NCBI GenBank assembly: GCA_009837355.1
Contig: VXTR01000019.1
Span: 1-57,778 of the forward strand
Length of the DNA stretch: 57,778 nt
Reading direction: 5' to 3'
From: Chloroflexota bacterium
GTDB taxonomy: Bacteria > Chloroflexota > Dehalococcoidia > Lucifugimonadales > UBA3495
Below are positions 3,037 to 16,266 of the stretch, in pieces. The first letter of the stretch is position 1. The number at the start of each line of letters is the position of its first letter. A program made the position numbers and the translations under genes. A model generated the notes under the pieces. It made no database searches, was not told where the DNA came from, and was given only the letters and a program-made list of their open reading frames with translations.

Positions 3037-3918
3037 TCAGCCCTGGCGAACGAACTTGTCGATGCCCGTGCCGTCGCTGAGCCCAACGTAGATGTCGCCG
3101 CGGGAGTCCACCCAGCTGCCGTGGCCGGGGCCCCGGCAATCAAAGCGGGACAATACGTTTCCGGAAGTGTCCAGCACGCTCACCCTGGCCGACGAATCGT
3201 TGACGCTGCCCTCGCTGACCACCAGGTTCCCCTCGCTGTCCACCGAGATGTCCATGGGCCGCTGGATGTCGTCCCAGATAGTGATGAACTCGCCGTCCAG
3301 GCTGAAGAGCTGCATCCGGTGATTTTCCCGGTCGCAAAGGAAAACGGTGTCGTTGTGGATCAAAAGGCTGTGAGGAAGGTGGAAGTGCCCCGGCGCGCTC
3401 TTCCCAGGTTCGCCCCAGGACTGCTTGAGTTGACCGTCCCAACTGAACCGGTGGACCCTGGCGTTGCGGTATCCGTCGGCCACGTACAGGTCGCCCGACG
3501 GAGCCGGGACCAGTTCGGCGGGGTAGTTGAAGGGGCCGGCGGAACGCGGGCACAAGTCGCCCGGGTTCTCGCAGCCGGTGTCGGAATGGACGCCGTGGCG
3601 CCCCAGCATCTGTATCGGCTTGCCGTCGATGGTGTACACCAGGCACACGGAGTTGTCCCGGTCGGTCAGGTAAACCGTGTCGTCGCCGTCGATGTAGATG
3701 CCGTGGGCGAAGGTGAAGGCGCCGTTGCCCCAGCTGTCCAGCAGGTTGCCATCGCGGTCGAAGATGAGGATGGGCGGGTCCTTGCGCTGGAAGGCGAACA
3801 CACGATCCTGGGAGTCGGTTGCGATGGCGCTGACCATGGCGAAGGTATCGCCCCCGGGCAGCTTGGCCCAGTTCTCAATCACTTCATAGGTGTACTTTCC
3901 GCTTCCTACCGTCGTCAT
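3037..3918 (-). CDS. NHL-repeat beta-propeller protein (copy 1)
   Basis: A 293-aa protein made of NHL repeats forming a six-bladed propeller. Repeated blade motifs include VFAFQRKDPPILIFDRDGN, VYLTDRDNSV, LYVADGYRNARVHRF and VFLCDRENHRMQLFSLDGE. The arrangement resembles peptidyl-alpha-hydroxyglycine amidating lyase and related NHL hydrolases. No signal peptide is visible, so it is probably cytoplasmic. A clear ribosome site aaaggagg precedes ATG 3918. A paralogue at 6740-7633 shares the start TVGxGKYTYE and the same repeat order. It is the first gene of a two-gene unit with the MidA-like methyltransferase. Substrate unknown. Confidence 0.8.
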   Translation of the reverse strand: MTTVGSGKYTYEVIENWAKLPGGDTFAMVSAIATDSQDRVFAFQRKDPPILIFDRDGNLLDSWGNGAFTFAHGIYIDGDDTVYLTDRDNSVCLVYTIDGKPIQMLGRHGVHSDTGCENPGDLCPRSAGPFNYPAELVPAPSGDLYVADGYRNARVHRFSWDGQLKQSWGEPGKSAPGHFHLPHSLLIHNDTVFLCDRENHRMQLFSLDGEFITIWDDIQRPMDISVDSEGNLVVSEGSVNDSSARVSVLDTSGNVLSRFDCRGPGHGSWVDSRGDIYVGLSDGTGIDKFVRQG

Positions 3919-5699: not shown

Positions 5700-6713
5700 C
5701 TACAGGGTGTGCACCGCCGGTATGACCTCACGGCCCACCAGGTCAATATGCTCCAGCACCTCGGCCTGGGACATTTCCGGGTAGAACAGCCGCAGCGCCA
5801 CGTCGGTGAACCCCATTTCGTGGTAGGCGGCAATCTGCTCGATGCACTCCTCGGGGCTGCCTACCAGGAAAGTGTCGTCCATCAGCGTTTCCAGGTCGCC
5901 GGTTACCTTGCGGGTCAGCTCGTGGTCGGCGCCGTGGAGACCGTGCTGGGCGTACACCTCATACTTCCTGGCGAGCTTATCTTTGGCCCGCTCCAGCGCC
6001 TCCTCATGGGTCGGAGCGCAGAAGAACTCGCGGACGATGACCATGTCCTCCGGCACGTCGTGGCCGCTCTCCTCAAGGGTCTGATGGTACAGGGATATCT
6101 GGCGCCGGATGGTGGCGTTGGACTGGGCGGGGCCGACGTAGAAAATGTCGCCGCTCCGGCCGACCCGGCGCACCGCCGGATCGCTCATCGCGGCCTGCCA
6201 GATCTTGGGGTGGGGCTGCTGGTAGGGCCGGGCGGTGGGCCGCGCTCCGGTAACGTGATAGTAGCGTCCATGGTGGGTTACCTCGTCGTCGCTCCACAGC
6301 CGTCGCATCAGGCCGAGGGCTTCGGTGCAGCGGGCGCCGCGCTGGGACATCCTCGTTCCGAAGGCTTCAAACTCCTCCGGGCGGTAGCCCAACCCGATAC
6401 CGAGGATGAAGCGTCCTTCGGCGATGTGGTCGAGGGTCGCGGCCTGCTCAGCCACGTCCACCGGATTCAGCAGCGGCAGCAGCAGGACCGAGGTTGCCAG
6501 GGTCATGTTGCCCGGCTCGGCGGCAAGGCGCGCCAGCACCGGCCAGGGCTGGAAGTGCTGGAAGGGGTCGATCAGGTAGTGATGACCCCAGCAGTAGATG
6601 TCAAATCCGGCGTCGCGGGAGGCGCGGAACTGCTCCAGGTGGTTTTGCCACTGCTGCTGATGGTCGATGCTGTCCCGCTGCACCACATGACCGACCTGGT
6701 AACCAACGCGCAT
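5700..6713 (-). CDS. Luciferase-like (LLM class) flavin-dependent oxidoreductase
   Basis: A 337-aa protein of the bacterial luciferase-like monooxygenase family (FMN or F420 cofactor). The N-terminal TIM barrel shows LATSVLLLPLLNPVDVAEQA, then ATLDHIAEGRFILGIGLGYR, both characteristic. DDTFLVGSPEECIEQIAAY near residue 280 is the usual C-terminal signature. Members add oxygen to, or transfer hydride to, diverse small organic molecules. Two other paralogues sit at 25287-26249 and 53039-53917. It lies in the operon with an NHL protein (26 bp upstream) and the hydroxy-acid oxidase (76 bp downstream), which suggests a shared catabolic pathway. The cofactor and substrate cannot be told apart from sequence alone. 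Confidence 0.85.
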   Translation of the reverse strand: MRVGYQVGHVVQRDSIDHQQQWQNHLEQFRASRDAGFDIYCWGHHYLIDPFQHFQPWPVLARLAAEPGNMTLATSVLLLPLLNPVDVAEQAATLDHIAEGRFILGIGLGYRPEEFEAFGTRMSQRGARCTEALGLMRRLWSDDEVTHHGRYYHVTGARPTARPYQQPHPKIWQAAMSDPAVRRVGRSGDIFYVGPAQSNATIRRQISLYHQTLEESGHDVPEDMVIVREFFCAPTHEEALERAKDKLARKYEVYAQHGLHGADHELTRKVTGDLETLMDDTFLVGSPEECIEQIAAYHEMGFTDVALRLFYPEMSQAEVLEHIDLVGREVIPAVHTL

Positions 6714-6739: not shown

Positions 6740-7633
6740 CTACCCTCCAACGTGGCGGTACTTGATGAGCCGCTCGCCTTCGAGGTTCTGGTTGACGTAG
6801 ATGTCGCCATGGGAATCGACCCAGACGGCGTGGGCGCCGTTGCCCCAGCCGGCGTCGGAGGGACTGCCCCAGCGGGCCAGGACGTTGCCGTTGATGTCCA
6901 GGATGGACATGAAACCGTCCAGTTCCGGCACGTACACTGCTTCGTCATCGTCAATGTAGATGTCGCAGGGTCGGGCCAGGTTCGGCCACTGCTCCAGGAA
7001 GTTGCCCTCGGCGTCGAAAATCTGCATCCGGTTATTCTCGCGGTCGGCCACGAACACCCGCCCGTCCGTATGCACCCAGACCCCGTGGGGGACGTGGAAC
7101 TCGCCGGGGCCGGTCTTGCCGGGCGCGCCCCAGGAGTCCACCAGCTGGCCGTCGGGGGTGAACCGGTGCACGCGGGCGTTGCCGTAGCCGTCGGAGATGT
7201 ACAGCAGACCGTCCGGGGAGATGGCGATGTCGCTGGGGCGGTTGAACGGGCCGGCCGCGCGGAGGGCAGGGTCGCTGTAGTTGCCCGACCAGCCGGTGTC
7301 CGAGGGCTGATCCCACTGGCCCATAGTCATCAGAAGGTTGCCGCTGGGGTCGTACTTGAGGACGACATGGCTGTTCTTGACCGGCAGGTAGAGGTTCTCG
7401 TCCCCGTCGATGAACATGCCGTGGGCATCGGTGAGCACACCCTCGCCCCATGAGGCGAGGTAGTTGCCGTCCCGGTCCAGGACAATCAGCGGGTGTTCGC
7501 CCCGGTTGAAGAGATACACCCGGTCCTGGGAGTCGGTGACGATGGCCGTCTGCCCCAGCGTCCATCCTTCAGGCAGCTTCTCCCAGTTCTCGACCCGCTC
7601 ATAGGTGTACTTGCCATTGCCGACGGTTGCCAT
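6740..7633 (-). CDS. NHL-repeat beta-propeller protein (copy 2)
   Basis: A 297-aa NHL propeller, paralogous to 3037-3918. Blades are marked by VYLFNRGEHPLIVLDRDGN, LYISDGYGNARVHRFTPDG and VFVADRENNRMQIFDAEGN. The two copies share a nearly identical opening (TVGxGKYTYE...ENWxKLPxG) and DTGxxxxxxDPxxRxxGPFN loops. No export signal is seen. The start ATG 7633 has a gagagga ribosome site. It lies between the UGSC selenoprotein gene and a luciferase-like gene in one operon. Related NHL proteins include lactonases and amidating lyases, but no catalytic set is evident enough to assign a reaction. Confidence 0.8.
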   Translation of the reverse strand: MATVGNGKYTYERVENWEKLPEGWTLGQTAIVTDSQDRVYLFNRGEHPLIVLDRDGNYLASWGEGVLTDAHGMFIDGDENLYLPVKNSHVVLKYDPSGNLLMTMGQWDQPSDTGWSGNYSDPALRAAGPFNRPSDIAISPDGLLYISDGYGNARVHRFTPDGQLVDSWGAPGKTGPGEFHVPHGVWVHTDGRVFVADRENNRMQIFDAEGNFLEQWPNLARPCDIYIDDDEAVYVPELDGFMSILDINGNVLARWGSPSDAGWGNGAHAVWVDSHGDIYVNQNLEGERLIKYRHVGG

Positions 7634-7685
7634 TCGTCCTCTCTCGCTCGCGCCCGGTGAACCGGGAGACAGCTTGTTGGTCGCT

Positions 7686-8243
7686 TTAGTAAGTGGTCAG
7701 GGTGTCGATGACTGCCTGTTCCAGCTCGCCGGCGCGGACTGAGACCTGGTCGGGCGTCAGGCCGCCCAGGGGGTGAGGAATGCCCAGGGGGTGGAAGTCG
7801 CCGCGGCCGAAGGTGCGGGCGTGGCGGAAGGCGGAGTTCAGGAACGGGTCGGTGCAGAGCACCACCGTGGGGATGCCGAGGTTTTCCAGGGTCATTGCGT
7901 CGTGCACACTGCACGCGGTGCAGGACCCTCAATCCGCAATGGCGGTAACCACGAAGTCGCATCGCTGGGAAAGGTCGGTGATGATGTCATCGGTGGCCGG
8001 CCGGGAATAGACGAACTTGTCCACGGCGATGATGTCGCCCAGTTCCAGGTCTTTGGCCATACGCTCGCCGATGTTGCGCAACAGGAGGTCGGCGTTGGCC
8101 TTGCGGTTGCCCAGAAAGCCGCCCACCTTGTCGTGCAGCGTGTCCAAACGGGGCGCGGCCCGCCAGCGGGAGGCGGCATCCGGGTCGATGGGCAGGGCCA
8201 GGCCCAGTTCCTGCATTCGTTCCTGGTAGTTCGTTACAGTCAT
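7686..8243 (-). CDS. UGSC-family selenoprotein (in-frame UGA read as selenocysteine)
   Basis: A 185-aa protein interrupted by a single in-frame TGA at 7929-7931, codon 105. Reading through gives TAIAD-U-GSCTACSVHDAMT, the signature of the UGSC (seleno)protein family, and the homology continues on both sides: GGFLGNRKANADLLL upstream, LGIPTVVLCTDPF downstream. The U/C-x-x-C redox motif resembles the selenocysteine site of glycine/betaine reductase protein B. Directly after the UGA the transcript can fold: GGGTC at +1 to +5 pairs with GACCC at +36 to +40, and GTGCA-GTG-TGCAC puts a GU-containing apical loop at +20 to +22, where bacterial SECIS loops sit. Start ATG 8243 has gaggt upstream. selA, selB, selC and selD are not in the window. 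Confidence 0.87.
7886..7928 (-). promoter_or_regulatory. Candidate bacterial SECIS hairpin
   Basis: The 42 nt immediately after the UGA codon contain a 5-bp outer stem (GGGTC/GACCC) and an inner hairpin GTGCA-GTG-TGCAC whose loop starts 20 nt after the UGA. An alternative inner pairing, CTGCAC-CGC-GTGCAG, competes with it. Bacterial SECIS elements lie within the coding region just 3' of the UGA and are bound by SelB through a small GU-containing loop. The folding is by eye and not energy-calculated. Confidence 0.55.
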
Positions 8244-8265
8244 GGTTACCTCTGCAATTTTCGGA

Positions 8266-9300
8266 TCAGCGTTCAATCTTGCGCGTTATCCTCTGGGATC
8301 CCCAGCCGGGCAGGTAGGCCGAGTGGGGGCCGCCGGCGCCGCCGGCGACGAAGATGTTGATGCGGTCCGGGGCGCGGACCACCGGCACCATCTGGTCGTC
8401 GTCGTCAGCGTTGATGTACCGAGGCCAGAAGTGGCCGCGGCGGGAGTCGCCCTGGGGCGGGCCGCCCTGTTTGATTTTGCTTACCGGCTTGCGGGCGTGC
8501 TCGTAGAGGAACTGGCGGATGTCCCGCTTGTTCCAGCCGTCCCTGTGGAGGAACTTGGCGTGCTCTGGGCCAATCACTACCATGGTGTCGCCCATTACGT
8601 ACATCTGAACGTTGCCCAGGGTGCACATGGTGTCGGCCAGCACGGTCAGGAAGTTCCGCGAGTGGGAAGCGTGGTACATGATGTTGTGCGGCGCCTCGGC
8701 CGGGAACACGGACACCGTGCTGTCGGTGGGGGCGAAACCCAGCTCGACGTGCATCGGTTCCCAGGGGTTGGCGTCCTCGTCTTCGGCGACGCAGTAGGTA
8801 TAGGCGCCGGGATGGCCGAAGGTAGCCTTGTTGGTCTCGCCGGGTATGGCGCCGCCCAGGTTGAGCAGGACCAGCTTGACCGCCCGGCCGATGGTGGCGT
8901 TGGCTCGCCAGCCGGAGCCAAAGCAGTTGTAGCCGCCGTTGATGTCCAGCTCCTTGACGATGGGGCCGTTGACGATTAACAGGGGAGTGTGGATGCCGGT
9001 GGAGCACATCACTCCGCGCAGGTTGAACCGCTCGTCCATCATCGCTTCAAGGGCGGTGATGATCACCGGCATATGCTCCGGCCGGCATCCCGCCATGACC
9101 GCATTGACCGCGACGCGCTCCACCGTGGCCCGTCCGCCCAGGGGCGGCAGTTCGGCGATGAGTTCGTCGCCGCCGCGGCCGGCGCTCTCCACGAAGCGGC
9201 GGACCAGAGGTTCGGACGGCGGCACCACCGGCAGGCCATCGGTCCACCCGGTCTCGAACATCAACTCAATGGCATCGGCAACGTCTGTGGAAAACATCAT
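8266..9300 (-). CDS. Conserved protein of unknown function, partner of the UGSC selenoprotein
   Basis: A 344-aa soluble protein I cannot assign to a named family. Recognisable blocks are FETGWTDGLPVVPPSEPLV at residues 16-34, GRATVERVAVNAVMAGCRPE near residue 56, RGVMCSTGIHTPLLIVNGP near 95 and ANATIGRAVKLVLLNLGG near 130. Several cysteines (GVMC, MAGC, GYNC) could be redox active. It ends 22 bp before the UGSC selenoprotein start, in the same operon, so it probably forms a complex or acts in the same step. No signal peptide or membrane segment is visible. The start is one of two adjacent ATG codons at 9295-9300; no strong ribosome site precedes them. Confidence 0.7.
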   Translation of the reverse strand: MMFSTDVADAIELMFETGWTDGLPVVPPSEPLVRRFVESAGRGGDELIAELPPLGGRATVERVAVNAVMAGCRPEHMPVIITALEAMMDERFNLRGVMCSTGIHTPLLIVNGPIVKELDINGGYNCFGSGWRANATIGRAVKLVLLNLGGAIPGETNKATFGHPGAYTYCVAEDEDANPWEPMHVELGFAPTDSTVSVFPAEAPHNIMYHASHSRNFLTVLADTMCTLGNVQMYVMGDTMVVIGPEHAKFLHRDGWNKRDIRQFLYEHARKPVSKIKQGGPPQGDSRRGHFWPRYINADDDDQMVPVVRAPDRINIFVAGGAGGPHSAYLPGWGSQRITRKIER

Positions 9301-9421: not shown

Positions 9422-9511
9422 TTACGGGCGAGGTCATTGGTAGACCTCGCGCCGACAGCTATGAACCAGCGTACTGCGAGCCATCCCTTTCCCCATCCCG
9501 GAGGATGCGGC

Positions 9512-10956
9512 GTGAAAATCGCCTGCGTCCTGGTTACCCACCTGCGGGCCAAGGTGGAGATGCGAAGGCAGCCCCACCTGAAGGGCCGTCCCGTCGTCAT
9601 CATTGACCGCTCCCTGGGCCGACCCCTGGTCATTGACCATTTTCCCGCAGCGTCCAACGTATCTGCCGGAATGACCCTGGAGCAGGCCCTGTCCCGCCAA
9701 ACCGACGGCGACGTTCTCGAAGCCGACGAAGGAGCCTACCGGCGGGAGTTTCAGCGGATGCTCCTTTCCCTGCAGAGAGTCAGCGACCGGGTGGAGGGAG
9801 CGGAGATGGGCACGGCCTACGTGCGCCTGGACGGGTTGGAGAGCATGTACAGTGGAGAGGCCCGGCTCGTGACGACCCTGCTGAACGCGACGCCGCAGTA
9901 CCTGGCGCCCAGGGTCGGCGTGGGAAACGCCAAATTCCCCGCTTACGTGGCCGCCCGGACCAGCCACACCCTGGGGTCAGTCAGGGTTCCCCCGGAGGCC
10001 GCTCATTTCCTCGCGCCTCACTCCGTTGACCTGCTGCCCCTTCCCCCTGCGGTCAAGGAGGAAATGCGCTGCTTCGGTTTGCATACCCTGGGCGACGTAG
10101 CGGTGATGAAACCGGAAGCGCTTATCAATCGCTTCGGCCCGGAGGGTCAACGGGCATGGGAACTCGCCCAGGGCATTGACGGTTTCCCCTGGTTCCCCTC
10201 AAGCACGAGGAGCCCGTCGTGGAACACGCTGCCCTGCCCTTTGCCTCGGCGTCTCTGGAACTCCTGCTGGCGGCGATGGACACCCTGCTGCGACGGGCCT
10301 ACGCCCAACCCCGAATGCGGGGCCGGTACGCCGGGGGAGTGGCGCTGGAGTGTGCCCTCTACCGAGTCGCGCCCTGGCAGAAAGACTTCCACTTCAGGCG
10401 GGCTGTGGGAGACTGGCAACGGGCCTCCCGCATCCTCCGGGGTCAACTGGAAAGTGACCATCCCCGGGCTCCGGTAGAGGAGGTAACCCTGTCGCTGTCC
10501 GGCATCACCGGGGAGTCGGGCTCACAGTTGAGCCTGTTGTCCGACTTGCGGAGCGATCGGGAAGGGCGGCTGGCCGAGGCCGAGCGGCAGCTTCAAGCTC
10601 GCACGGGGGGCAAACCTGCTCTCTACCGAGTGGTGCCGGTGGCCCCCTGGCATCCGGCGCCCGAGCTGCGAGCCATGCAGGTCCCGCTGGACCCTTCCGG
10701 AGCCGGCGAAATGCGACCCCTGTCTCTGCCGACCCCGGTTGCAGTCCGCGAGGGACCGGAGGGCGAGCCGGAGGCGGTGCAGTTGGGGAATCGCTGGCGG
10801 CGGGTGGCTCACGTCGAAGACCGGTGGTGCTTCGACCTGTGGTGGATGCCTCAACCCCTGGCCAGGAACTATTACCGGGTCGGCAGGGAGGACGGCGGGG
10901 AAGTAACCTTGTTCCGGGACCGGCGGGAGAACCGCTGGTTCCGGCAGGACCCGTAG
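9512..10956 (+). pseudogene. imuB: ImuB-like Y-family polymerase homologue with a one-base frameshift
   Basis: Two overlapping open frames make one protein of about 481 aa if a single base is restored. The first frame, from GTG 9512 behind ggagg, holds the Y-family start KIACVLVTHLRAKVEMRR, palm and thumb. It loses homology after AQGIDGF near 10185. The second frame picks up exactly there with PLVPLKHEEPVVEHAALPF and continues to 10956. One C is missing from the cccc run at about 10186-10190. ImuB is the inactive polymerase subunit that links DnaE2 to the clamp; the catalytic acidic residues of active Y polymerases are also not evident here. The frameshift may be a real mutation or a homopolymer sequencing error. 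dnaE2 follows after 19 bp. No imuA-type gene is present. Confidence 0.8.
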
Positions 10957-10975: not shown

Positions 10976-13900
10976 GTGTCTGCCGGCTACGTGGAATTCC
11001 ACGCCAAGAGCTTCTATTCCTTCGGAACGGGGGCCTCCCACGTCCACGAGTTGCTGGCCCAGGCAGGGGAGTACGGGTATTCCGACCTGGCCCTGACCGA
11101 CGGCAACCTGTGCGGCGCCCTGGATTTCGCCCGACTGGCCGGCAGCCTGGACATCCGGCCCATCACTGGTGGCGAGCTCACCCTGACCGACGGCTCTCGT
11201 ATTGTCCTGCTGACGAAGACTCGCCAGGGTTACACCAACACCTCCCGCCTCTTCACCTTGGCCAACGCCCATGACCGCCGGGAGCCCCGGCTGTCTCCGG
11301 CGCACCTGCCGGAACATGCCGGGGGTGTGATACTGCTCACCGGCGGGCGCGACGGCCCCCTATCCAGGCTGCTGGCGGAAGGCTGTCGCAAGGAGGCCCG
11401 CCGGCTTCTGAACGACTACCGGGAATGGTTTGGGCCTGAAGGAACGTACGTGGAACTCCAGCAGAACCTGCTGAGGGGAGACACCCAGCGCAACCGGGAG
11501 TTGGCGGCCCTGGCCTGCGAAGTCGGCGCGCCAATCGTTGCCACCAATGATGTCCTATACCACCGTCCGGAGCGCTGCCGGCTGCAGCACGCTCTGGTCG
11601 CAGCCCGGCGCAACACCACCATCGAGCAGGCCCTGCCTTACATACAGCCGAACCATCACCTCTGCCTGAAACCACCCGCAGAGATGGCGGCCCTTTTCCG
11701 GGAATACCCCGGGGCCATCGCCAATACTGTCAGAATCGCCGAGCAATGCGATTTCAACCTGGCCGACGACCTGGGCTACACGCTGCCCGACGCTGCAGTG
11801 CCGGAAGGTTATACCCCCAGCAGCTACCTGGAACGCCTTTGCCTGGAGGCCGCCCAGCGTCGCTACGGGGCGGTGTCTCGCCAGGTGCGGGAACGCCTGG
11901 CCGAGGAGTTCCAGCTGATTGATCGCCATGGCTTGGCCGGATTCCTGCTCCTCTACCGGGAAATAGTCATGCTCGCCCAGGAAATCATGGAGGAGAAAGG
12001 CCTGGCCCATCCGGAGATTCCCCTGGAGGAGCGGCCGCCGGGCCGCGGTCGGGGTTCCTCGGTGGCCCTTCTGGTGGGCTACCTGACCGGCATCAGCCAC
12101 GTTGACCCCCTTCGGTGGGGCCTGACCCTGGAGCGGTTCATCTCCGAGGACACCAGCCTGCTGCCCGACATCGACCTGGACTTTCCCCGTGCCTTGCGGG
12201 ACGAGCTCATCGGGCGGGTGCATCAACGCTTCGGGCCGGAGCACGCCGTCCTGGCCGGAGCCGTCTCCACCTATTCGGCCAAGGGCATCGTCCAGGACTT
12301 GGGCAAGGCCCTGGGGCTGCCCAAAGAGGACCTGAAGCGTCTCTCCCGGCAGCTCTCCCGCGACGGAGCGAAACTGCGCGACGAAATGCTGGCCCTGCCC
12401 GATTTCCGAGACCGGGTGGATGCTCCCGGCTGGCGGGAACTGGCAGACCTGGCTCCCCAGTTGATGCACGCTCCCCGCAGCCTGGGACAGCACGTGGGCG
12501 GCATGGTTCTGAGCAGCGAACCCCTGCCGGAACTGGTCCCGATACGGGCCGGAGCCACCCCCGGACGTTACATCATGGATTGGAACAAGGACTCCGTTGC
12601 CGACGCCAACTTCGCCAAGATTGACCTCCTTTCCCTGCCAGTGCTGGACCAGTTGGAAGAGGCCCTGGACCTGATCGAAGCGAAGCAGGGCCGCCGTCCC
12701 GACCTGGGCCGGGTCAGCCCCAACGACCCCTCGGTGTACGACATGATCAACCAGGGAAAATCCAAGGGGGTGTTCCTACTGCAATCGCCGGCCCAGTTGA
12801 AGATGGCCCAGCGCCTGAAATCCCGCAACCTGCTCGACTTGGCCTACCAGGTAGCCCTCATCCGCCCGGGGGTGGGTGTTCAGGGCAGCGCCGTAAGCCA
12901 GTTCGTGGAGCGTTACCGCCACGGCGCTGCCTGGGAGTACGACCATCCCCTGGAAAAGCGGGCCTTGGAGCGAGGCTACGGCATCATCGTCTGGCAGGAG
13001 CAGGTGGTGCAGCTCATCGGGGACGTGGCCGGCATGACCGCCGCCCAGGCCGATGAAATCCGGCGCGCCTTCGCCAGGCCCAACAACGACCATCTCATCG
13101 CCCGGCATCGCGCCCGCTTCCTGGAAGGCACCGGGGAGAAGGGAGTGCCTAAGGATGCGGCCGAGCGGATATTTGCCAAGATCAACGGACAGTATATGTT
13201 CCCGGAAAGCCATTCCCACGCTTTCGCGGTTACCGCCTACCAGGCGGCCTGGCTGAAGCGGTATCACCCCCTGGAGTTCTTTGTGGCCCTGATTAACCAG
13301 AAGCCCATGGGCTTCTACCCGGTGGAGACGTTGAAACAGGACGCCCGACGCTTCGGCGTCCCGTTCCTCAACCCATGCGTCAACCGCGGCGGCGTGGACT
13401 GCATCCCTTATGACGACTCGCTGCTGCTGGGCCTGCGGTTCATCAAGGACGTGGGGGCAGCTTCGGCGGCGCTTATCGTTAGCGAGCGGGAGGGCCACGG
13501 CCCCTACGCCGGTCCTGCCGACCTGGTGCGGCGTACCGGGCTGAAACCGCAGGGGGTGGAATCGCTGGTGATGGCCGGGGCCTTCGACACTCTGACGCCC
13601 AACCGTCGCCAGGCTCTCTGGGACGTGGGCTTGGGCATCCGACCCGGCAGGAACGGGCAGCGGGCCTTCGCCGGCGCTGTGAATGGGGACGTTCCCAACA
13701 TTCCCGACTTCACCGCCGATGAGAAGATGGCCGGCGAGTACCGGGTCCTGGGCATCTACCCCAATGGGCACCTCATGGAATTCGTACGGCCCAGCCTCGG
13801 CGCCGACGTGCTGCCCGCCGCCGCCGTGGACCGCGCCGCCGAGGGAGCGGAAATTCTGGTGGCCGGCTGGCCCATTGCCCGGCAGCACCCCAGGGGGGAG

Positions 13901-14119
13901 GACAGCACGGTGTTCGTGACCATCGAGGACGAGACCGGGGACGCTCAGGTTATCCTGTGGCCACAGGCTTTCCGGGAAAACCGCCGGCAGTTAGGCAGCC
14001 AGGTGCTGGTGGTGCGCGGAACCGTTTCCCGGTGGGACGGAACCGCCAACGTAATCGCTTCCGACGTGCGGGGCATCCACCCCCACGTGCCCATGCCCGC
14101 CTCCCATGACTGGCGTTGA
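10976..14119 (+). CDS. dnaE2: Error-prone DNA polymerase III alpha subunit DnaE2
   Basis: A 1047-aa C-family DNA polymerase. The PHP domain begins at YVEFHAKSFYSFGTGAS and includes GYSDLALTD. The polymerase palm carries LLPDIDLDFP near residue 400, with the catalytic aspartates, and a third acidic segment near NFAKIDLLSL. GIIVWQEQVVQLI and FPESHSHAFAVTAYQAAWLK are typical of DnaE2. A helix-hairpin-helix region and an OB domain (VFVTIEDETGDAQVILWP) close the protein. It performs translesion, mutagenic synthesis with ImuB after DNA damage. The start is GTG 10976 with a poor ribosome site, 19 bp after imuB, which suggests coupled translation. Regulation is expected from the LexA-box promoter at 9393. 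Confidence 0.93.
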   Translation: MSAGYVEFHAKSFYSFGTGASHVHELLAQAGEYGYSDLALTDGNLCGALDFARLAGSLDIRPITGGELTLTDGSRIVLLTKTRQGYTNTSRLFTLANAHDRREPRLSPAHLPEHAGGVILLTGGRDGPLSRLLAEGCRKEARRLLNDYREWFGPEGTYVELQQNLLRGDTQRNRELAALACEVGAPIVATNDVLYHRPERCRLQHALVAARRNTTIEQALPYIQPNHHLCLKPPAEMAALFREYPGAIANTVRIAEQCDFNLADDLGYTLPDAAVPEGYTPSSYLERLCLEAAQRRYGAVSRQVRERLAEEFQLIDRHGLAGFLLLYREIVMLAQEIMEEKGLAHPEIPLEERPPGRGRGSSVALLVGYLTGISHVDPLRWGLTLERFISEDTSLLPDIDLDFPRALRDELIGRVHQRFGPEHAVLAGAVSTYSAKGIVQDLGKALGLPKEDLKRLSRQLSRDGAKLRDEMLALPDFRDRVDAPGWRELADLAPQLMHAPRSLGQHVGGMVLSSEPLPELVPIRAGATPGRYIMDWNKDSVADANFAKIDLLSLPVLDQLEEALDLIEAKQGRRPDLGRVSPNDPSVYDMINQGKSKGVFLLQSPAQLKMAQRLKSRNLLDLAYQVALIRPGVGVQGSAVSQFVERYRHGAAWEYDHPLEKRALERGYGIIVWQEQVVQLIGDVAGMTAAQADEIRRAFARPNNDHLIARHRARFLEGTGEKGVPKDAAERIFAKINGQYMFPESHSHAFAVTAYQAAWLKRYHPLEFFVALINQKPMGFYPVETLKQDARRFGVPFLNPCVNRGGVDCIPYDDSLLLGLRFIKDVGAASAALIVSEREGHGPYAGPADLVRRTGLKPQGVESLVMAGAFDTLTPNRRQALWDVGLGIRPGRNGQRAFAGAVNGDVPNIPDFTADEKMAGEYRVLGIYPNGHLMEFVRPSLGADVLPAAAVDRAAEGAEILVAGWPIARQHPRGEDSTVFVTIEDETGDAQVILWPQAFRENRRQLGSQVLVVRGTVSRWDGTANVIASDVRGIHPHVPMPASHDWR

Positions 14120-14226: not shown

Positions 14227-16266
14227 ATGACCTCGGTGAAATTGACGATACTTTGCGCCTCGTTGCTGTCGATGTTCGTGTTGCTGGGATGTCGTCCGGA
14301 GGTGGTTCGTGAGGAAGTCGTAAGGGAGGTGGAAGTAGTGGTTACGGCCACGCCCGCGCCCGGCGCATCCGCTCAAACCGGGCAACCGTCCGCGCCGACC
14401 GACCGGGCTCCCGACCCCACGCCAGGCCAACAGCCCGCCGTGGCAACGCCGGAAACCTCCACCGCCGGCGATGTAACCGAAAATGTGTACCAGCTGGGCA
14501 TCTCGGAAGATCTGACCACGACCAACTACTGGACGTACCTGGGGCCGGATGGGACCATCTGGAACTCGTACGTGCTGGGCGGCAGCAAGCCTTCCCTCTA
14601 CTCGTACTCGGCGCAGCGGTATGACTGGGTACCGTCGCTGGCAGAGGATTTCCCGACGCCGCTGGCAGAGGAAACCGTAGCCGGCCAGAACCTCTGGACC
14701 ACTGAGGTTCCCCTGAAGCAGGGAGTGAAGTGGAGCGACGGCAATGACGTCACCGCCGAAGATTTTGTCTTCACCGCGCATACTGTTGCCGAACTGGAGC
14801 TTTCCGGCAACTGGCCGTCCATAGTTGATTCCGAATACTTCGACCATGCGGAAGCGTTGGATCCCTATCGACTCAAGATCTACTTCAAGCAGAAGCCCGG
14901 CCTGGCGCGCTGGCAGTTCGGAATGGCCTTCATGCCCATTCTGTCGAAAACGTACTGGGAGCCGGTAGTGGCCGAGGCGAAACAGGCCGGCGATGTCATC
15001 GAACAGCAGAAAGTCCTGTACGCCCACGTTCCGGAGAGCGAACCCACCGCCGGGGGATTCGGATTCACCAGGTGGGAGCGCGGCGCGTACGCGGAAAAGG
15101 AACGAAACTCCAACTACTACTTCGCCGACAGCGTGGTAGCGCTGTACGCCAACGGCGCGTACGCTGAGTCCAAGACGGGAGCCTACGAGTTTACCGCATA
15201 CGGCGAACCCGGCGGCGATAAGACGCTGGAGTACACGGTGGGTCCCTACGCCGGCAGCGCGATCTACTCAATCTACAGCAGCCAGGATGCCACGGTACTG
15301 GCGCTGAAAAAGGGCGACATCGACTTCATGCTGAATCCCCTGGGCCTTTCCCGAGGCTTGCAAGAACAGTTGGAGGGCGAGGACGGACTGGCGGTAATTG
15401 AAAACGCCTCGGACGGCATGAGGTATCTCAGCTTCAACTTCCGCAAGGAACCCATGGGCAACAAGGCGTTCCGGCAGGCGGTGGCAACGTTGATCGACAA
15501 GGAATTCCTGACCAGCACCGTTTTGCAGGGCGTGGCCATCCCCATGTACACCACCGTGCCGGAAGGCAACCGCGCCTGGTACAACCCCGACGTGCCGCTG
15601 ATCGGCAAGGGTTTGAGCCGGGGCGAGCGCATCAGCCAAGCCGTGCAGTTACTGAAAGATGCCGGGTTCACTTGGGAAACGGAGCCTCGCATCAGCGAAG
15701 ATGGCAGGTTTGTGGAGCAGGCCGGCGAGGGATTAAAAATGCCCAACGGCGAGCCGATGCCGGCTATGGAAATCCTGGCGCCCAGCCCGGGCTACGATCC
15801 GCTGCGCTCCACTTTCGCCATCTGGATTGAGCGGTGGCTGAACGAAGTTGGCATTCCCGTGCGGGCGGACCTGACCGGCTTCAACCTGATCGTGGACAAG
15901 GTGTTCACTCGTCAGGACTTTGATATGTGGATCCTGGGGTGGAAGTTGACCGCCTACCCCGACTACCTGGAAGCCTTCTTCCACAGCCGCCACTCAGGAC
16001 TGGAAGGCCACAACGCCGGAGGCTACAACAACCCGGAGTTCGACCGGCTGGCCGACCGACTGCTGGCCGAAACCGACCTGGAGTCGGCCCGTCAACAGGT
16101 TTTCGAGATGCAGGCATTCTTGGCGGAAGACCTGCCTTACGTGGTGCTGTTCGACACTCCCCTGGTTGAGGCGTACCGCAGCGGCCAAGTTGATTATCCC
16201 TACACCGAAACTTGGGGCGGACTCCAAAGTGCGTCAGGGATGCCGGCGCTAGTGCACTTCAAGTAG
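14227..16266 (+). CDS. ABC transporter substrate-binding lipoprotein (SBP_bac_5, oligopeptide type)
   Basis: A 679-aa extracytoplasmic solute-binding protein. The signal peptide ends in the lipobox LLGC, with lipidated Cys22. A Thr/Pro/Ala-rich linker to about residue 80 tethers the domain to the membrane. The family 5 fold follows: LKQGVKWSDGNDVTAEDFVF near residue 162, NKAFRQAVATLIDK near 415 and a C-terminal LAEDLPYVVLFDTP. It captures a peptide, glycoside or similar solute and delivers it to the permeases encoded just downstream. The ribosome site gggaggg precedes ATG 14227. It is the first gene of a five-gene transport operon. The solute is not predictable from sequence. Confidence 0.9.
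   Translation: MTSVKLTILCASLLSMFVLLGCRPEVVREEVVREVEVVVTATPAPGASAQTGQPSAPTDRAPDPTPGQQPAVATPETSTAGDVTENVYQLGISEDLTTTNYWTYLGPDGTIWNSYVLGGSKPSLYSYSAQRYDWVPSLAEDFPTPLAEETVAGQNLWTTEVPLKQGVKWSDGNDVTAEDFVFTAHTVAELELSGNWPSIVDSEYFDHAEALDPYRLKIYFKQKPGLARWQFGMAFMPILSKTYWEPVVAEAKQAGDVIEQQKVLYAHVPESEPTAGGFGFTRWERGAYAEKERNSNYYFADSVVALYANGAYAESKTGAYEFTAYGEPGGDKTLEYTVGPYAGSAIYSIYSSQDATVLALKKGDIDFMLNPLGLSRGLQEQLEGEDGLAVIENASDGMRYLSFNFRKEPMGNKAFRQAVATLIDKEFLTSTVLQGVAIPMYTTVPEGNRAWYNPDVPLIGKGLSRGERISQAVQLLKDAGFTWETEPRISEDGRFVEQAGEGLKMPNGEPMPAMEILAPSPGYDPLRSTFAIWIERWLNEVGIPVRADLTGFNLIVDKVFTRQDFDMWILGWKLTAYPDYLEAFFHSRHSGLEGHNAGGYNNPEFDRLADRLLAETDLESARQQVFEMQAFLAEDLPYVVLFDTPLVEAYRSGQVDYPYTETWGGLQSASGMPALVHFK

Follow-up and report, generated by a model that had tools for sequence, protein, structure and literature searches.

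The minus strand of the window (the whole stretch of 57,778 nucleotides of Chloroflexota DNA that was analysed) carries at 7686 to 8243 what is confirmed as a single UGSC-family gene with an in-frame UGA that codes for selenocysteine (Sec). The gene lies within an operon, and the features of the locus are the following.

8266 to 9300, minus strand: partner gene encoding 344 residues; its stop codon TGA (8268-8266) precedes the start of UGSC by 22 nt
8249 to 8253, minus strand: AGAGG ribosome-binding site, 5 nt before the ATG at 8243, as read from the sequence
7686 to 8243, minus strand: coding sequence of the UGSC-family selenoprotein (185 residues, Sec at residue 105)
7929 to 7931, minus strand: UGA codon read as selenocysteine (codon 105, the U of the UGSC motif)
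7901 to 7915, minus strand: upper stem and apical loop of a predicted bacterial SECIS (arms 7915-7910 and 7906-7901, loop GUG at 7909-7907)
6740 to 7633, minus strand: NHL beta-propeller gene, the next gene downstream of UGSC
5700 to 6713, minus strand: luciferase-like (LLM) monooxygenase gene, the fourth gene of the operon (PF00296, 213.7 bits)

Read from the sequence, the UGSC gene opens with the ATG at 8243-8241 and closes with a TAA stop at 7688-7686. A plus-strand reading of the same interval was rejected because its frame is not open. Open reading frame calling with table 11 returns a frame at 7929-8276 that terminates at the in-frame TGA, and the sequence-only reading, which had held that two apparent reading frames split by standard gene callers are one UGSC gene, is borne out on both counts. 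The read-through protein contains the stretch IADUGSCTACSVHDA and with it the U-GSCTAC motif that had been named as diagnostic. It scores 149.3 bits against the Pfam family UGSC (PF24696, curated cut-off 25), in a match that covers residues 34-194 of the 196-residue read-through product and spans the U at its residue 116. The NCBIfam equivalog model NF041046 is passed narrowly (127.3 bits, cut-off 125), again with a match that crosses the TGA. UGSC has been described before as a selenoprotein family, though a functionally uncharacterised one, and the window gene is an added member of it.

A hairpin follows the UGA at about the 20 nt where a GU-loop SECIS had been anticipated. Counted from the U of the UGA as nucleotide 1, its 6-bp stem pairs nucleotides 17-22 with 26-31 around the loop GUG, with a spacing of 19 nt. 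The hairpin satisfies the published constraints on bacterial SECIS elements, which are a loop of 3-9 nt, a G within the first two nucleotides of the loop and a spacing of 16-37 nt (PMC13188914). Its folding energy alone is not significant against shuffled sequences (z = -0.67) and was dropped as proof of a SECIS; covariation and a synonymous-codon null were used instead. In 31 sequences, a subset picked by the author to represent the variants, five of the six stem pairs change on both sides, and none of 500 shuffles does as well. All six pairs are formed in 73 of the 84 distinct sequences of the full set, compared to a mean of 3.9 and a maximum of 11 of 84 under resampling of synonymous codons. 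Pair 21-27 is C-G in 62 sequences and G-C in 17, a swap that couples the choice between TGC (Cys) and TGG (Trp) to the last base of the codon two positions further on. The serine codon that lies over the loop is AGT in 76/84 sequences, while the partner genes seldom use AGT (37 of 680 serine codons). An Rfam scan of 7600-8400 gave chance matches only. The GU-loop bacterial SECIS downstream of the UGA is confirmed as a prediction from comparative sequence data, with strong support from covariation.

Conservation, selection, RNA structure and machinery form four independent lines, all drawn from sequence, and they answer in the affirmative whether the UGA serves as a sense codon. A genuine stop codon, or an assembly or sequencing error, that leaves a truncated 104-residue protein or a pseudogene would agree with the splitting of the gene by standard ORF finding and with the unexceptional energy of the single hairpin. 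However, the TGA is kept at the Sec codon in 43/43 homologous loci from other GTDB genomes and separate assemblies, and each of the nine UGSC paralogues in the genome of the window has one TGA. The titles of the 43 records name SAR202 cluster, Dehalococcoidia and Chloroflexota metagenome-assembled genomes (MAGs), and identities in the aligned set range from 31 to 95%. Replacement of the U by a Cys codon, proposed earlier as a point to look for, occurs in none of the 43 loci. The coding region also remains under selection past the TGA, where the earlier proposal would have suffered from a loss of conservation: relative to seven close homologues, Ka/Ks is 0.03-0.09 downstream of the TGA with the SECIS codons excluded, as low as the 0.05-0.15 found upstream. 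Together with the covarying SECIS and a full Sec machinery, these values leave the genuine stop with next to no probability; by the conservation data, it is "refuted in practice". At L024:6885-7022, an incomplete duplicate of the C-terminal part of UGSC, with 80% identity, is found downstream of the intact gene.

The machinery for Sec insertion is encoded in the same genome, as the sequence-only reading had implied in calling for selA to selD. A tRNA-Sec with a UCA anticodon (66.4 bits), SelB (354.8 bits), SelA (556 bits) and SelD (382 bits) are all present. The SelD gene (C39:7224-8144, L021) has an in-frame TGA of its own, and SelD is probably itself a selenoprotein. A genome-wide reassignment of TGA to another amino acid would likewise keep the frame open once the codon is read as a residue. 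Against it, the partner gene directly upstream terminates at the TGA at 8268-8266, and this use of TGA as a normal stop means that recoding is gene-specific and that the code is not reassigned. With the UCA-anticodon tRNA-Sec, the complete Sec pathway and the conserved SECIS also in place, a reassigned code is extremely improbable.

The expectation that selenoproteins are sparse in Chloroflexota fails for this class. Of 393 genomes sampled from the class, 254 have a selA match above the cut-off and 133 have UGSC. According to a hand tally, a strong selA match is present in about 122 of the 133 UGSC genomes versus about half of the others. The UGSC genomes that do not have a strong match are mostly incomplete.

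The partner gene, the nine-fold paralogy and the operon were absent from the sequence-only reading. The genome of the window encodes nine UGSC genes and nine partner homologues, and each pair is adjacent or fused. On contig C64, both are fused in a single reading frame, and on contig C62 a short gene lies between them. In the homologous loci of other genomes, the partner is located upstream on the same strand in 42/43 cases. UGSC is therefore one half of a strict module with the 344-residue partner, which looks new as far as could be checked. A 2008 survey describes a fusion of UGSC to a conserved domain termed "Unknown_1" (PMC2398784), and this domain is possibly the partner found in the window. 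The 344-residue partner has no match in Pfam or NCBIfam, and a Pfam scan of 30 partner homologues gave no consistent family. Searches of the PDB by sequence with the UGSC and partner profiles returned nothing credible.

The order partner, UGSC, NHL beta-propeller and LLM monooxygenase is kept in most orthologous modules, down to about 57% identity, with the placement of the LLM monooxygenase judged in those loci long enough to show it. The NHL protein at 6740-7633 is similar to the lyase portion of peptidyl-glycine alpha-amidating monooxygenase (PDB 3fvz, E 1.6e-21). An operon that combines an NHL lyase-like protein with a flavin monooxygenase suggests that the window's UGSC protein probably takes part in the breakdown of one organic compound. 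Elsewhere in the window, a second NHL gene is found at 3037-3918. A family-5 solute-binding lipoprotein (SBP_bac_5, 154 bits) is encoded at 14227-16266, about 6 kb from UGSC and on the other strand. A Y-family (ImuB-like) polymerase gene at 9437-10956 appears to be split over the overlapping frames 9437-10477 and 10219-10956, which suggests a frameshift or an error; immediately downstream of it is a gene for a DnaE-type polymerase (10976-14119).

The family is greatly expanded in a second genome of the class, a 5.0 Mb MAG (G027; 96% complete, 7% contamination) in which the UGSC search gave at least 150 matches. The 0.6 Mb examined around these matches (L183-L258) hold 162 UGSC domains, 157 with a TGA at the Sec position and five that do not code for Sec. 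The motif is of the U-G-[S/G/A/T]-C type in 151 of the 157, and the remaining six have N, D or L as the third residue. The genome thus carries at least 157 Sec-coding UGSC domains. A mixture of strains was rejected as the source of these copies, since no copy shares more than 91% identity with its nearest paralogue (median 69%) and many copies sit together on single contigs of about 350 kb. The domains are spread over 161 UGSC frames, of which 109 are UGSC-partner fusions, and in 44 of the 52 others a partner gene lies no more than 600 nt away. Downstream of the TGA, 117/150 cases show a hairpin of 5 bp or more whose loop begins with G, against 19 expected (maximum 25) from synonymous resampling. 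Twenty control stretches of the same genome (400 kb) contain neither UGSC nor partner. A third genome, a MAG of 2.7 Mb (G028; 95% complete, 1% contamination), gave 46 UGSC matches.

The largest set of bacterial selenoproteins given in a May 2026 review comprises 63 genes, and at least 157 Sec-coding domains amount to more than twice that set. That number of Sec codons within a single family would invalidate the upper bound reported so far. The expansion looks new as far as could be checked: no paper on UGSC expansion in SAR202 or Chloroflexota was found in the open literature, with subscription journals and preprints outside the search. It may have been overlooked because standard annotation would cut each gene at the UGA. 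The expansion would show that Chloroflexota with ties to the SAR202 group of the dark ocean use selenium in bulk for catabolism.

Five UGSC domains of G027 (L226, L227, L255, L205 and L192) have lost the Sec codon and have gained no Cys in the same motif. Four of the five are fusions that retain the partner domain along with its conserved Cys72, and the Sec-less copies are possibly neofunctionalised. A joint loss of Cys72 and Sec was considered and rejected, as these four fusions keep Cys72 and four Sec copies do not have it. The two losses are uncoupled, which argues against an obligate Sec-Cys72 pair.

Neighboring genes in G027 may point to uptake of substrates. Family-5 solute-binding proteins occur at 16 per 100 kb beside the modules versus 2.5 in control stretches, and 78% of the 99 modules that could be assessed lie no more than 3 kb from one, compared to 11% of random points. 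This link was measured around the modules of G027; for the window's own module, the nearest such gene is the one about 6 kb away on the other strand, which counts against it there. Other neighbors are 2-hydroxyacid dehydrogenases, MmgE/PrpD, LarA-like proteins and CoA transferases. These solute-binding proteins and the conserved operon with the LLM monooxygenase are consistent with a catabolic role for UGSC.

The AlphaFold2 model of the UGSC protein (pLDDT 86.6) takes on a predicted flavodoxin/Rossmann-like α/β fold, in which the Sec position would fall in the turn that joins a strand and a helix. A profile of 213 UGSC sequences aligns in hhalign with GrdB/PrdB-like selenoproteins of related genomes at a probability of 94.3% (P 1.1e-7), Sec on Sec, whereas unrelated control profiles reach at most 2.5%. 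With fewer sequences, the probability is 83%. Weak NCBIfam matches of the UGSC protein to GrdF and GrdB fall on the same stretch. The homology spans only about 70 residues, and the GrdB model TIGR01917 gives 18.3 bits, well under its cut-off of 602.2. By these profile comparisons, the Sec domain of UGSC is a remote homolog of the Sec domain of the GrdB/PrdB reductases. This relation, together with the placement of the expanded modules beside family-5 solute-binding proteins, looks new as far as could be checked. Two GrdB/PrdB-like proteins are encoded elsewhere in the genome of the window (C46:55752-56174, L168, and C34:5231-5644). In the former and its relatives, the sequence LTPT-U-PLC spans an in-frame TGA, and the genome thus has further selenoproteins of the GrdB/PrdB superfamily. 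The Sec seems to be the point where the Pfam GRDB model itself stops.

A thioredoxin-like redox protein, active in oxidative defence or protein-thiol repair with the partner as its reductase or client, has been considered for UGSC as well. Such a role would fit the UxxC motif, and a likely Trx-like fold was suggested in 2008 (PMC2398784). In contrast, flavodoxin/Rossmann-like entries lead the fold matches of the AlphaFold2 model, and no thioredoxin-fold entry is among the matches listed, which is not proof of absence. The homology runs to GrdB/PrdB instead, and at least 157 copies beside solute-binding proteins fit substrate-specific catabolism better than general redox defence. A thioredoxin-like function is therefore rather improbable.

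For the partner, hhalign detects no relation to GrdB-like proteins (0.8%). No Pfam match of the GrdE/PrdA pyruvoyl-subunit type was found among partner members up to E 10, a search with limited sensitivity for a very distant relation. Conservation is high in both halves of the module. Among 159 UGSC domains, U is conserved in 97%, G in 100% and C108 in 97%; among 150 partner domains, Gly71 and Cys72 are conserved in 100% and 97%, respectively. Residues G22, N66, MAGC 69-72, NGP 111-113, E173 and W180 of the partner are invariant. A Foldseek search with the partner model yields a weak and not confident best match (E 7.7e-3, probability 0.41), and the second half of the model may resemble class I fumarase and IRG1/MmgE entries in a weak and patchy way. 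UGSC and partner could consequently be a catabolic pair with a chemistry other than that of GrdB, such as a selenolate-dependent lyase, an isomerase or a metal-dependent dehydratase in which the partner is the main catalyst. Most of the invariant residues sit in the partner, and MmgE/PrpD and LarA-like genes beside some modules point in the same direction as the fold resemblance. The weakness and patchiness of the fold matches stand against such a chemistry, as does the conservation of the Sec and Cys of the U-x-x-C motif, which is among the highest in UGSC. This alternative is unlikely, though it deserves consideration.

The best explanation, which we hold to be moderately probable, is that UGSC is a SECIS-directed selenoprotein and serves with the partner as a subunit of a two-component, GrdB-like catabolic enzyme. 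Homology, covariation and a machinery encoded in the same genome support readthrough, in which SelB and Sec-tRNA-Sec would decode the UGA under the direction of the SECIS hairpin, itself part of the codons that follow. The UGSC protein would be one subunit, and the protein encoded 22 nt upstream the other. Their strict adjacency or fusion argues for a two-component enzyme, presumably a physical complex. By analogy to the glycine and proline reductases, to whose GrdB/PrdB the Sec domain is remotely homologous, the selenolate at the helix start may attack a small substrate, held by the partner, at a carbon or a heteroatom. The neighboring Cys of the U-G-S-C motif could then resolve the intermediate as a selenosulfide. 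Such an enzyme would cleave its substrates reductively, and the other paralogues may serve other substrates. The modules would then represent substrate-diversified catabolic selenoenzymes.

In its widest form, the proposal is that UGSC and its partner constitute an unrecognised two-component selenoenzyme family with a GrdB/PrdB-related Sec domain, that SAR202-type Chloroflexota use its paralogues for the uptake-coupled breakdown of many organic compounds, and that amplification in at least one lineage has produced upward of 150 Sec genes, more than in any other known bacterial selenoproteome. We regard this combined statement as evenly poised between true and false. The function of UGSC becomes approachable through its obligate partner, the operon and the remote link to C-N-cleaving reductases, and the solute-binding proteins beside the modules could report the substrates. 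The expansion most of all, but also the strict pairing and the tie to GrdB, sets the gene well above one more selenoprotein.

Compared to the UGSC family as reported from the Olavius delta symbiont and Global Ocean Sampling, the window gene passes both curated cut-offs and shares the Sec in U-G-S-C and the SECIS directly downstream. The family has been reported as a lone protein of unknown function, whereas the window gene is one of nine paralogous pairs with a partner. With GrdB (the selenoprotein B of glycine/sarcosine/betaine reductase, PF07355) and PrdB (D-proline reductase), UGSC shares the remotely related Sec domain, the UxxC motif and a multi-subunit organization, which for UGSC is a proposed one. 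Unlike these proteins, UGSC falls far below the GrdB cut-offs and does not have the GrdB N-terminal half; its partner shows no detectable relation to GrdB-like proteins and gave no pyruvoyl-subunit Pfam match among the matches listed. Thioredoxin-like UxxC selenoproteins have in common with UGSC a U-x-x-C motif at the start of a helix; UGSC differs in its predicted flavodoxin/Rossmann-like fold and in its obligate partner gene.
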